DNA of 64,000 bases, taken from Desulfurococcales archaeon (GTDB taxonomy: Archaea > Thermoproteota > Thermoprotei_A > Sulfolobales > WAQK01). The translations under genes were made by a program, and so were the position numbers. Below, in pieces: positions 17,693-33,088 of the stretch. The notes beneath the pieces are model-generated. The model did not search any database and was not told the origin of the DNA. It saw only the letters and a program-made list of their open reading frames with translations. Location: contig JALWQH010000043.1 of the NCBI GenBank assembly GCA_027083135.1, positions 62,001 to 126,000 on the forward strand. Direction: 5' to 3'. Within the stretch, counting starts at the first letter, position 1. Each line of letters opens with the position of its first letter.

Positions 17693-17923
17693 CACAGCAC
17701 TTAGGGGCCAGGAAACATTAGGTTGTAGCTTTCTGTATCGAGTCAGGTCTTTTTATGCCTCTGAGGGCTAGCGGGAAGAATAGGAGACTGCCTGGCCAAG
17801 TAGAGCATTCTATGAGTAGCGGTTTTAAACAACCATGCAGTACTAAGCAGACGTTTACCCTCATCACCATCAACATTAAACGGTAGTGTAAGCGTCATGT
17901 AATTCATATCGGGGACTCCCCAA

Positions 17924-17937
17924 ATAAAAAATTATAA
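17924..17937 (+). promoter_or_regulatory. Putative BRE/TATA for the downstream ncRNA candidate
   Basis: AAAAAATTATAAG; predicted TSS ~25-28 nt downstream near GGTGACC (17962). Confidence 0.4.
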
Positions 17938-17961
17938 GCTCTAGAGGTTATAAATCTAAAT

Positions 17962-18160
17962 GGTGACCTCGGGGTTCCTGAGGGGAGTCGTGAAGGCTCC
18001 CGTAGGCGGCCCCGAGGAGACCGTGATGAGCCTAACCGTGCCTGATACGGTATGATACAATATTGATAAATGAAGACACGGTTCGGGTGAACGGCTTAGT
18101 GGATCCTGGTAAAATAGATGATTTCAGGTATGGTTAAAGGGGGCTAAGGAGCCGGGTAGG
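17962..18160 (+). ncRNA. Candidate structured non-coding RNA / cis-regulatory leader (unassigned family)
   Basis: CCTCGGGG/CCCCGAGG (17967-17974/18010-18017) enclosing CCT/AGG and GGGAGTC/GGCTCCC (17983-17989/17995-18001, GTGAA loop); then TGAGCC/GGCTTA and AACCGTG/CACGGTT (18034-18040/18077-18083), with competing ACCGT/ACGGT (18035-18039/18047-18051) and GTTC/GAAC (18081-18084/18089-18092). Confidence 0.5.
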
Positions 18161-18254
18161 CGGAGACATGCCATTATTGCTTGGGTGGGAAACACACTAT
18201 TTTTAGGCCACCATATTCATATAGTCTGATCGGCTGGTTAGCTATACTTGGAGT

Positions 18255-18692
18255 GTGGCGTCGATGAGCGAGATCGAGGATCTAAGGGTTGAGGACATAA
18301 TGACCGCCAACGTGGTGACGATGGGTTCAGAGGAGTCAGCCTACATGGCGGCCAAACTCATGTCTGAGAAGAAAGTCGGCAGCGTGATCGTTGTGGATGA
18401 TGAGGGGAAGCCTGTAGGCATCATAACAGAGGAGGATCTTATAAGGAGGGTTTTAGCGTCGAGGCGTGACCCTGAGACCACTAGGGCCAGGGATATTATG
18501 AGCCACCCCCTCATAACGGTTGATAGCGGTATGAGTTTAAGGGAGGCTGCGGAGCTGATGGCTCGCAGGGGGATAGGGCATCTACCAGTAGTTAAGAAGG
18601 GCAGGCTTGTAGGGATAGTGGCGGAGTTCGATATAATTACAGTGGCCCCCGACCTCCTAGAATTAATTCATATTAGGGGTACGAAGGAGTAG
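18255..18692 (+). CDS. CBS-domain protein (two CBS)
   Basis: 'VEDIMTANVVTM...GSVIVVDDEGKPVGIITEEDLIRRV...ARDIMSHPLITV'. Confidence 0.9.
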   Translation: MASMSEIEDLRVEDIMTANVVTMGSEESAYMAAKLMSEKKVGSVIVVDDEGKPVGIITEEDLIRRVLASRRDPETTRARDIMSHPLITVDSGMSLREAAELMARRGIGHLPVVKKGRLVGIVAEFDIITVAPDLLELIHIRGTKE

Positions 18693-18759
18693 CTAGCCGT
18701 GCCTTGAAGCCCTAGCGGCGGATGCTTTAATTCCCGTGCATACGTATTAATAATATGGG

Positions 18760-19551
18760 GTGGCATGCATCCCTATAGTTAAGAATATACTTAATGAAAA
18801 ACACCCCTACGTCTACCTCGACGACACTGCTACTCATGCACGATCAGTTATGAGGGAGACAGGGGTCAGAATTCTCCCAGTAATAGACCCGGATTACAGG
18901 GTGAGAGGTGTTCTGGGAAGAGTAGAGGTTCTCGGAATAACTGCTACCCGCTCAAACCTCCTAGTCAGAAACCTCATGTCTCCCCCGCTAATAGTGCTGG
19001 ACGTGGAGGATGAGCTGCACGAGGCTGTGAGAAGGATGCTCAGCATAGATGAGTGGTACGCGCCTGTGGTTAGCGGGGATAGGTATGCAGGGGTGGCAGG
19101 CCTCGACGGGTTTCTCGCCTTATACTTAAAGAAGGCTCCAGGCCGCCTAGAAGAAGTAAGGGTCTCTGAGGCTATGTCTAGAAACGTGGTCTACGTGCAG
19201 CCCGAGGATCATGTGGGCAGAGTATGGATGAAAATGCTTAAACACCGCTATGCAGGCCTACCCGTCATCGACGGTAAAGGCAGGGTTCTAGGCATAATAA
19301 CGCAGATCGACCTGATAAGAAGAGGGTTTACTAGGCCTGCGCTTGAATCAGAGTCCTCTCCTAAGAGGGGTCCTTCAGCCAGGGAGATAATGGTGGCATC
19401 CCCCATAATACTAGGCCCCGACGCCAGCCTCCTAGAAGCAGTTAGACTTATGCTGGACAGGGATATTGGAAGAATAATTATATGTGGGCCTGACAGGAAA
19501 TTACTAGGCATACTTGACAGGGAAGATGCAGCACGCATCCTCCTAGAGTAG
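18760..19551 (+). CDS. CBS-domain protein (four CBS motifs)
   Basis: 263 aa, repeated CBS signatures ('SEAMSRNVVYV', 'GLPVIDGKGRVLGIITQIDLIRRG'). Confidence 0.88.
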   Translation: MACIPIVKNILNEKHPYVYLDDTATHARSVMRETGVRILPVIDPDYRVRGVLGRVEVLGITATRSNLLVRNLMSPPLIVLDVEDELHEAVRRMLSIDEWYAPVVSGDRYAGVAGLDGFLALYLKKAPGRLEEVRVSEAMSRNVVYVQPEDHVGRVWMKMLKHRYAGLPVIDGKGRVLGIITQIDLIRRGFTRPALESESSPKRGPSAREIMVASPIILGPDASLLEAVRLMLDRDIGRIIICGPDRKLLGILDREDAARILLE

Positions 19552-19563
19552 AGGGTGGTGTGA

Positions 19564-20505
19564 ATGGCTTACAGAGGAACTCCTAGAAGGCCTGAGGGCA
19601 TAAGGTGGCTTAGAAGCGACGGTAAACCCAACTTCTCCACACGCCTCTACCGCAGGGAGGGGGAGCTTAAGATACTCGCCACAAGGCCCGTAATCCATGT
19701 GGCCCCTACAACCCCCTTCGGCGAGGCCCTTGAGACCATGGCTAAACATAATGTGAGGGCCCTGCCCGTAGCGCAGCCCAGTGATAAGGCTCTTGCAGGC
19801 CTCCTCAAGCTATCCAATATTGTAAGCTATCTTGGAGGAGGAGAACTCTACAACATCGTTGTTAACAGGTATGGGGGATCGATATATAAGGCTATGGAGG
19901 AGCCTGTAGACAGCATAATGGATAGACACCCCTTCACAGCAACCATTATGGATAGGCTGACCGGAGTGCTGGAGAGAATGGTGCTTGAAGGCGTAGGCGT
20001 GGTCGTCGTAGTTGACTCTGAGGGCAGGCTCTACGGCATTCTAACGGAGCATGACATTGTTAGAAGGCTCATGGAGAAGAAGGTGGGGGTAAGGGTCTCG
20101 GAGGTGATGGCTAGGAACGTGGTAACAATTGATGTTGAGGCTAGCCTCATGGATGCTGCTAAAAGAATGATAAAGTACAGGTTCCGCAGGCTCCCAGCAG
20201 TTGATCCTGCAGGCGATGTTAAAGGCATGCTGACAGCCAAGGATATAGTCAGGTTCTTTGGAACACATCAGGCATACATCCATGTGACCAGAGGGTTGGT
20301 GGAGGAGGCTATGAGCGTCCCCGTGTACGAGGTCATGAGCCCAGTGTTCTACACTGTGCCGCCCGACATGGATGTAGGTGACGCGGCAACTCTTATGGCT
20401 GAGAAGGGTGTCAGCAGCCTACTGGTCGTCAAGGGTGGGAGGCTTAAGGGAATAATAACTGAGAGGGACGTCCTCTTCGCATTAGCTGCCAATAAGCCTA
20501 GCTAG
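19564..20505 (+). CDS. CBS-domain protein (four CBS motifs)
   Basis: 313 aa; 'VSEVMARNVVTI', 'VSSLLVVKGGRLKGIITERDVLFAL'. Confidence 0.9.
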   Translation: MAYRGTPRRPEGIRWLRSDGKPNFSTRLYRREGELKILATRPVIHVAPTTPFGEALETMAKHNVRALPVAQPSDKALAGLLKLSNIVSYLGGGELYNIVVNRYGGSIYKAMEEPVDSIMDRHPFTATIMDRLTGVLERMVLEGVGVVVVVDSEGRLYGILTEHDIVRRLMEKKVGVRVSEVMARNVVTIDVEASLMDAAKRMIKYRFRRLPAVDPAGDVKGMLTAKDIVRFFGTHQAYIHVTRGLVEEAMSVPVYEVMSPVFYTVPPDMDVGDAATLMAEKGVSSLLVVKGGRLKGIITERDVLFALAANKPS

Positions 20506-20580
20506 GCATAGATTATTTTACACCAGGCTTAGATTCATATGTGATGAGGTGTGGGCATCTAGGCTTCAGGGTGATGAATA

Positions 20581-21384
20581 ATGGCCGTATATGTTACCGT
20601 GGGAGACATAATGATCACTGATTTCCCATACGTGGATAAGAATGACAGCATACATCACGCCGTCAGGCTCATGGATAAACACGAGCTGGATAGAGTTCTC
20701 GTCACAGAGTCTGGGAGGCTTGTAGGCGTGGTAACCAAGAAGGATATAATAGTTAAACTAGGCGCTGCGCGTAGGAGGAGGCTGAGCCCCGGTAGAATGA
20801 GGGTTTCAGGCTTCATGACTATGAACCCCCTGACAGTGGAGCCCAGCACACCTATACCTGAAGCAGCCTCAATTATGGCTGAGAGAAATATCAGCGGCCT
20901 GCCTGTCCTGGAGGATGGGAGGCTTGTAGGGCTTATCACCAAGTGGGAGCTGCTCAGAGTGGTGGAGGGCGATAATACCCCTATCTCAGCCCTCTCAGCA
21001 ACAATGCCTATGGCTCTACGGACAAACGACACAATACTTCATGCTAGGAAGATGCTGCTGGACAATGATCTCCTTCTCCTACCAGTACTCGATGAGGAGA
21101 ACAGGGTTGTGGGAACTGTGAGCATAGATGAGGTGGCAGACGTGTTATTCGCCTTCTACGAGATTGTTCCAGCCAAGTATAGGAGGGAGAGGATACACAG
21201 CATACTTGTATCAGACTTCATGAGGCTTAGGCCTCCACTCATGCCTGGAGAGGCAAGCATAGGCGAGGCTGCAGGCCTGATGAGGGAGAGGAAGCATCGA
21301 GGAGTTATAGTGGTGAGCGGGGAGACTCCAACAGGCCTTATAACGCTGAACGAGGTGACACTATACGTAGCCAGGCGGGCCTAA
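20581..21384 (+). CDS. CBS-domain protein (four CBS motifs)
   Basis: 267 aa; 'VGDIMITDFPYV', 'VSGFMTMNPLTVEP', 'ISGLPVLEDGRLVGLITKWELLRVV'. Confidence 0.9.
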   Translation: MAVYVTVGDIMITDFPYVDKNDSIHHAVRLMDKHELDRVLVTESGRLVGVVTKKDIIVKLGAARRRRLSPGRMRVSGFMTMNPLTVEPSTPIPEAASIMAERNISGLPVLEDGRLVGLITKWELLRVVEGDNTPISALSATMPMALRTNDTILHARKMLLDNDLLLLPVLDEENRVVGTVSIDEVADVLFAFYEIVPAKYRRERIHSILVSDFMRLRPPLMPGEASIGEAAGLMRERKHRGVIVVSGETPTGLITLNEVTLYVARRA

Positions 21385-32981: not shown

Positions 32982-33088
32982 GGGCCCGTAGCTCAGCCTG
33001 GTAGAGCGGCGGGCTCTTAACCCGTAGGCCAGGCTAAGCCTAGGCTCCTGGGCGGAGGTCCCGGGTTCAAATCCCGGCGGGCCCGCCA
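32982..33088 (+). tRNA. tRNA-Lys(CTT), CCA encoded, intron ~33026-33055 (+/-3 nt)
   Basis: GGGCCCG/CGGGCCC acceptor, D-arm GCTC..GAGC, loop CTCTTAA, CCGGG-TTCAAAT-CCCGG T-arm; removing 30 nt between CCCGT and AGGTC gives a canonical 74-nt tRNA. Confidence 0.93.

Follow-up and report, generated by a model that had tools for sequence, protein, structure and literature searches.

A structured RNA at the right end of a non-autonomous IS607-type element in a Desulfurococcales archaeon, a probable guide RNA for TnpB-like nucleases encoded elsewhere in the genome

Positions 17704-18094 of the window (the whole stretch of Desulfurococcales archaeon DNA analyzed here, 64,000 nt) are likely to represent an internally deleted, non-autonomous IS607-type element, the RNA of which would load a TnpB-like nuclease in trans and so guard the site of its own element. 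This RNA is probably a guide used by related nucleases that are encoded elsewhere in the genome. Comparison of copies in relatives showed the element, its insertion rule, the divergent gene and RNA, the fold, the end of RNA conservation at the end of the element, and the RNA-only copies. A structured RNA behind its own promoter was judged to be real from these comparisons, and it is presumably expressed in the window's host. The parts of the window copy are listed in Table 1.

Table 1. Parts of the element copy in the window
Feature	Position	Strand	Basis
Non-autonomous, internally deleted transposable element	17708-18094 (17704-18094 with the left-junction GGGG)		Full-length relatives of ~1.3 kb; element missing from the orthologous G001 locus
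GGGG at the left junction, putative target site/TAM	17704-17707	+	Boundary from copy comparison and empty sites in G074
Left end of the element	17708-17770		blastn, 76-88% to left ends of other copies
Remnant of TnpB-like gene, first ~45 codons (MNYMTLTLPFNVDGDEGKRLLSTAWLFKTATHRMLYLARQSPILPAS)	17743-17907	-	76% identity to residues 1-54 of the L043 protein; ORFs
C-terminal TnpB-like remnant, ...LRGIKRPDSIQKATT	17718-17876	-	Another frame than the N-terminal remnant; ORFs
TATA box of the RNA promoter (AATTATAAG)	17930-17938	+	Position and spacing kept across copies
Putative right-end guide RNA scaffold (omegaRNA/reRNA-like)	17960-18094	+	Model R1, covariation, fold z
Hairpin P1 (17967-17974/18010-18017) with P2 (17983-17989/17995-18001), matching Rfam Sso133	17967-18017	+	P1 changes on both sides; Sso133 alignment
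Kink-turn hairpin	18021-18094	+	C helix paired in 99.2%; GA/GA visible in alignment A2
Kink-turn parts	C helix CCGU 18021-18024/ACGG 18091-18094; GAU bulge 18025-18027; GA 18028-18029 versus GA 18089-18090		
Stem of the kink-turn hairpin beyond GA/GA	Includes 18034-18040/18077-18083	+	
Putative guide segment, flanking host DNA CTTAGTGGATCCTGGTAAAA	18095-18114	+	Conservation ends sharply at 18094; length by analogy

When the DNA of 59 relatives was searched, the complete genome G027 (1.67 Mb) yielded 12 near-identical copies, and further copies were detected in the window's own genome (G000) and in G001, G002, G003, G023, G026, G044 and G052. Promoter and RNA were common to the aligned copies. 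Similarity was lost at a single point, directly after ...GGTGAACGG, which is position 18094 of the window, and beyond it every copy had a different sequence. Copies other than that of the window adjoined unrelated genes.

All-against-all comparison revealed a full-length form of 1316 bp in G027 (L033:865-2180; also L036), and a full-length form was also present in G001 (L043:834-2151). The majority of the G027 copies were 312-bp internal deletions of the 1316-bp element. In the window copy, the internal deletion had joined the first ~45 codons of the nuclease gene to its last few. RNA-only copies were common, and in many copies the promoter and the RNA had been kept after loss of the gene. The sole gene inside the full-length copies was that of a TnpB/Cas12f-like RuvC nuclease; no transposase gene was found within them.

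To define the insertion site, we looked in G074, which belongs to the same genus, for the sequences that flank the insertions of G027. Three clean empty sites were found (those of L031, L032 and L037), at which insertion had taken place directly 3' of GGGG with the right flank intact; L033, L038 and L041 were also compared and gave no clean empty site. The empty site reads GGGG followed by the flank, and the filled site reads GGGG, element body, AACGG and flank, which places GG at both junctions. GG preceded the element body in at least 35 of 46 left junctions, as tallied by an automatic boundary rule that undercounts. IS607 elements cross over at GG dinucleotides (PMC4058570), and a fixed GG belongs to the IS607 reRNA scaffold (PMC10711439). 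The GGGG of the window copy was assigned to the target from the empty sites of the other copies in G074, and its last GG is presumed to be the IS607-type crossover dinucleotide.

A complete IS607 element of G074, coding for a serine recombinase and TnpB, had an identical LE start (GGGGCAGAAACATT) and a similar RE (GTGAAACGG), the one clear case of shared ends with a tnpA-bearing element among the recombinase loci checked. This suggested that such a transposase could mobilize the family in trans. Candidates for a serine-recombinase helper were present elsewhere in G000 and in G074. The complete genome G027 gave no match to Y1 or to serine recombinase, and its helper may therefore have been lost, unassembled or unrecognized. 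The same finding, in a genome with 12 copies, is what raises the idea that the nuclease-RNA pair itself moves the element, which we regard as very improbable. Membership in IS200/IS605 had at first been assumed. It was dropped because Y1 transposase (PF01797) was absent from G000, G001, G027 and others (nearly all genomes examined) and GG was present at both junctions.

The gene in the full-length copies codes for a protein of 371 aa (family, ~370 aa) and lies on the strand opposite the RNA. In 30 homologues, 27-100% identical to the first sequence, D209 and E273 were invariant and D346 was nearly so (N in L128), so that the RuvC D-E-D triad is present; the catalytic motifs read GGVDVNVDR, LFLENP and GLDRHSASAY. 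The CxxC of the zinc finger (TNB) was missing, with no cysteines between RuvC-II and RuvC-III in the alignment of the 30 homologues (A3). Against curated family models, PF07282 and curated TnpB included, the nuclease scored below the cut-off. TnpB-related NCBIfam models matched 22 of the 30 members (best E 2.7e-7), and the canonical IS607 TnpB profile aligned to the C-terminal RuvC part over ~98 columns only (E 4.7e-7). A profile search of the sequences of solved structures gave no match, and a comparison of folds was needed. The AlphaFold2 model of the protein (pLDDT 85.7) was compared with the PDB by Foldseek, and Cas12k, Cas12f, Fanzor2 and the TnpB of ISFba1 (8iaz) were among the best matches for the predicted fold.

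The nuclease family was found in 71 of 197 genomes of the order and in 50 of 398 genomes in other orders of the phylum. Named hosts include Vulcanisaeta sp. JCM 14467, several Thermoprotei MAGs and a Pyrodictiaceae MAG, G001, which is in one family with the window's genome. The window's own genome carries a TnpB-like protein at G000:C13:3980-5071. Three loci (L053, L058 and L059) had the same ends and RNA type but a nuclease whose N-terminal half was very different, the whole proteins being 27-34% identical to that of L043. Their sequences suggest that the nuclease has been exchanged within one element frame.

Gene and RNA were divergent and 48-116 bp apart in 29 of the 30 pairs on one contig. 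The same-strand layout of TnpB/OMEGA systems, with the RNA at the 3' end of tnpB, was thus not seen in these 29 pairs. The two occurred together in 53 of the 197 genomes (gene in 71, RNA in 73; Fisher p 2e-16, an optimistic value because the genomes are related). One genome, G026, had 17 RNA copies (such as L063, L065 and L171), some of only ~104 nt. No gene of the TnpB-like family was found in G026, which also had 26 canonical-type TnpB-domain matches. Genomes of this kind suggested that some of the RNAs may be without a partner.

The RNA starts ~50 bp from the start codon of the nuclease gene, so that the two promoters may influence each other, and the antisense RNAs of S. solfataricus lie mostly opposite transposase genes (review PMC3432209). 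These facts would suit an RNA that serves transposition or controls the nuclease gene, as a structured end, an antisense RNA or an L7Ae-bound regulator, and not as a guide, with promoter and fold kept because the copies are young. We consider this unlikely. There is no overlap between RNA and gene, the RNA covaries over a set of homologues with widely differing proteins, and it persists after loss of the gene. Its end is the end of the element, with GG(G) on the other side, as expected from the geometry of a TAM and a guide. The arrangement GG(G)-element-flank therefore reads as TAM, element ending in RNA, and guide, which is the layout of TnpB and omegaRNA and favors the guide RNA.

The sequence-only reading of this region had proposed a promoter-preceded structured RNA, and this part of it held. 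The motifs on which it was based were all in place: the TATA-like element, the arms of P1 (CCTCGGGG and CCCCGAGG) and of P2 (GGGAGTC and GGCTCCC), GGTGACC at 17962-17968, ACCGTG at 18020-18025 and 18035-18040, and CACGGT at 18077-18082. The 135-nt RNA folded at -61.9 kcal/mol, compared with -41.7 +/- 4.1 for shuffled sequences (z = -4.9), none of 200 of which was as stable. In dozens of copies the TATA box stood ~25-30 nt before the RNA start, at a near-constant distance. A covariance model (R1) scored 105.8 bits (E 4.9e-27) on the window, which is one of its 30 source sequences, and gave 299 matches in the 73 genomes counted above.

Covariation was seen in the relatives. From 30 RNAs in a plain MAFFT alignment, RNAalifold recovered P1 together with the helix that closes the 3' hairpin, both showing compensatory changes. 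On the mixed alignment it returned only 11 pairs, because the lengths of P2 and of the distal stem vary between subgroups. In P1, all 7 of 7 pairs had changed on both sides among the 30 homologues. The covariation score with the named structure was 0.322, versus 0.140 +/- 0.012 for shuffled alignments and at most 0.119 for slid controls. The closing helix CCGU/ACGG, in which 99.2% of the cells were paired, also contained double changes. This outer helix closes exactly at the right end of the element. The kink-turn was called by inspection of the sequence, from GAU-GA/GA beside the closing helix; an assumed inner stem of three pairs was in a register that proved half wrong (51.7% paired). The kink-turn suggests binding by L7Ae, and S. 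solfataricus small RNAs have been recovered by L7Ae co-precipitation and by RNomics (review PMC3432209).

The mutually exclusive helices that had also been proposed gave way to mostly one fold. The second ACCGTG pairs with CACGGT, and the CCGT of the first (18021-18024) pairs with ACGG at 18091-18094, so that both copies are accommodated in one structure. A competing 5' GGU/ACC pairing showed no covariation. Two further hairpins of that reading, CCTG..CAGG and GGCT-aagg-AGCC, lie downstream of 18094, outside the conserved element, and were not conserved.

Scanning the window against Rfam at gathering and permissive thresholds placed only tRNA above threshold. RNase P and SRP, which the sequence-only reading had set aside, gave no match even at E 10. 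Within the segment of the RNA no family attained its gathering score, and the one notable match was RF02814 (Sso133) at 17950-18019, with 31.4 bits and E 2.9e-4, below the gathering score of 44. Homology was accepted despite this score because the gene neighborhood is shared. In Saccharolobus-like genomes, Sso133 matches of 44-100 bits were often located divergently upstream of the same TnpB-like family, and a covarying kink-turn hairpin then followed. The P1/P2 hairpin is common to both, and the Rfam model, 73 nt long, ends before the kink-turn hairpin. We interpreted the orphan Rfam family Sso133 (Sulfolobus sRNA133), from these alignments and neighborhoods, to be the 5' half of the same RNA in Saccharolobus. 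The claim of a new ncRNA thus stands as to an ncRNA, which is not wholly new. At three Saccharolobus-like loci (L131, L132 and L169), copies of the Sso133 RNA adjoin IS607 insertions (serine recombinase and TnpB), and at L131 and L132 the copies appear to be interrupted by them. This arrangement suggests that IS607 elements insert into RNA-bearing elements.

The Rfam matches to C/D, epsC, b55 and Na+ families were at chance level and were rejected. A methylation guide sRNA of the box C/D type could be imagined from the GTGATGA that resembles box C, from the weak C/D matches of 12-16 bits and from the kink-turn, a feature that box C/D RNAs share. All of these matches were far below the gathering scores, the opposite strand of the motif has GUGA/GGGA and not box CUGA, and P1/P2 and the element boundaries do not fit such an RNA, which makes this identity barely credible.

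A structured RNA just upstream of a CBS-domain gene (18255-18692) had earlier been taken as a possible switch-like leader, and the position and the strong structure do recall a riboswitch. As a conserved function this was refuted by the comparison, and the chance that it is correct is close to nil. In G001 the orthologous CBS gene is separated by a gap of ~70 bp from its upstream gene and has no element. The copies are dispersed beside unrelated genes, conservation stops 160 bp short of the CBS gene, and the alternative helix does not covary. Given this gap at the orthologous locus, the element in the window is best taken for an insertion, not for a leader of ancestral origin. The window has four consecutive CBS-domain genes at 18255-21384 on the + strand, and at least the first is syntenic in G001 with its upstream NFACT/RqcH-like gene. 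An intron-bearing tRNA-Pro at 32982-33088 was called with anticodon AGG. This anticodon is unusual for archaea, and the placement of the intron in this tRNA may therefore be mis-called.

The flank beyond 18094 bears on a further possibility, that the solo copy has been exapted as a regulator of a host gene, acting as an antisense RNA or through an RNP that it guides. There is a parallel in S. solfataricus, where RNA-257(1-4), promoter-bearing remnants of the ISC1904 family (resolvase gene, IS607-type), down-regulate the 1183 mRNA (PMC3674436). The first 18 nt of the guide segment had no other match with two or fewer mismatches in the window's own genome, and the two matches with three mismatches equaled the control count; we regard exaptation as distinctly unlikely. 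Plasmid and phage DNA databases gave no match.

A guide RNA that acts for the element would work as follows, by analogy with TnpB biology. Transcription would run beyond 18094 into host DNA, and the next ~16-20 nt would serve as the guide. Bound perhaps by L7Ae at its kink-turn, the RNA would load the TnpB-like nuclease of a full-length copy in trans. The RNP would recognize the GG(G) TAM followed by the guide sequence, that is, the empty insertion site, and cut it. Repair of the cut site from the filled copy would then restore the element. In this way the copy in the window, although decayed, could continue to protect the site that it occupies.

More broadly, these copies might form a crenarchaeal OMEGA system in which the guide RNAs have become genes in their own right. 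RNA-only mini-elements with their own promoters and differing host-derived guides would make up a distributed array of guides, a few TnpB-like nucleases without zinc fingers would serve it in trans, and L7Ae would be a subunit of the RNP. We put this forward tentatively, at somewhat less than an even chance. Sso133, an orphan among archaeal small-RNA families, gains an identity from the analysis. The TnpB-like family described here has its gene order inverted, a separate promoter for the putative guide RNA and a scaffold with a kink-turn. The analysis also makes it testable whether protein-less transposons can defend their insertion sites by guide RNA alone. A compact nuclease from hyperthermophiles, the guide of which would already be a separate gene, is of practical interest.

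The logic of TnpB and omegaRNA, the separation of the IS607 reRNA from the coding sequence (PMC11061315) and gene-less IS607-type RNAs (PMC3674436) are already known. In the literature searched, mostly open-access, we found no earlier account of the inversion of the gene order, of this family without a zinc finger, of its link to Sso133 or of RNA-only mini-elements that have kept a complete guide-RNA gene.

The closest system is ISFba1, an IS607 element with a reRNA derived from RAGATH-18 (PMC11061315). As here, it has a RuvC nuclease of ~370-390 aa, a reRNA independent of the coding sequence in which a conserved scaffold is followed by a non-conserved 3' guide, and a G-rich TAM (AGGAG or GAGGG in ISFba1). 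A possible kink-turn has been noted in RAGATH-18, a likeness to the window RNA, and the Rfam scans gave no match to RAGATH-18. In ISFba1 the RNA lies downstream of tnpB, whereas in the window family the RNA is divergent from the nuclease gene and has a promoter of its own, the nuclease is without the zinc-finger cysteines, and the host is crenarchaeal.

The TnpB-omegaRNA systems of IS200/IS605 (ISDra2 and SisTnpB1) share with the window family a TAM in the left flank, a guide in the right flank and a scaffold at the right end. Their omegaRNA overlaps the 3' end of tnpB in sense, and they have a Y1 transposase and another TAM, none of which applies here. RNA-257(1-4) of S. solfataricus (PMC3674436) are likewise promoter-bearing, gene-less and multicopy, and come from an IS607-type element, ISC1904. 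They differ in their origin, which is the distal end of the transposase gene of ISC1904, in sense orientation, and were reported as antisense regulators and not as guides; they may be stand-alone omegaRNAs of an IS607 TnpB. The MITEs and PATEs of IS200/IS605 are, like the window copy, internally deleted with both ends kept. The window family, in addition, retains a complete promoter and RNA gene, and its ends are like those of IS607.
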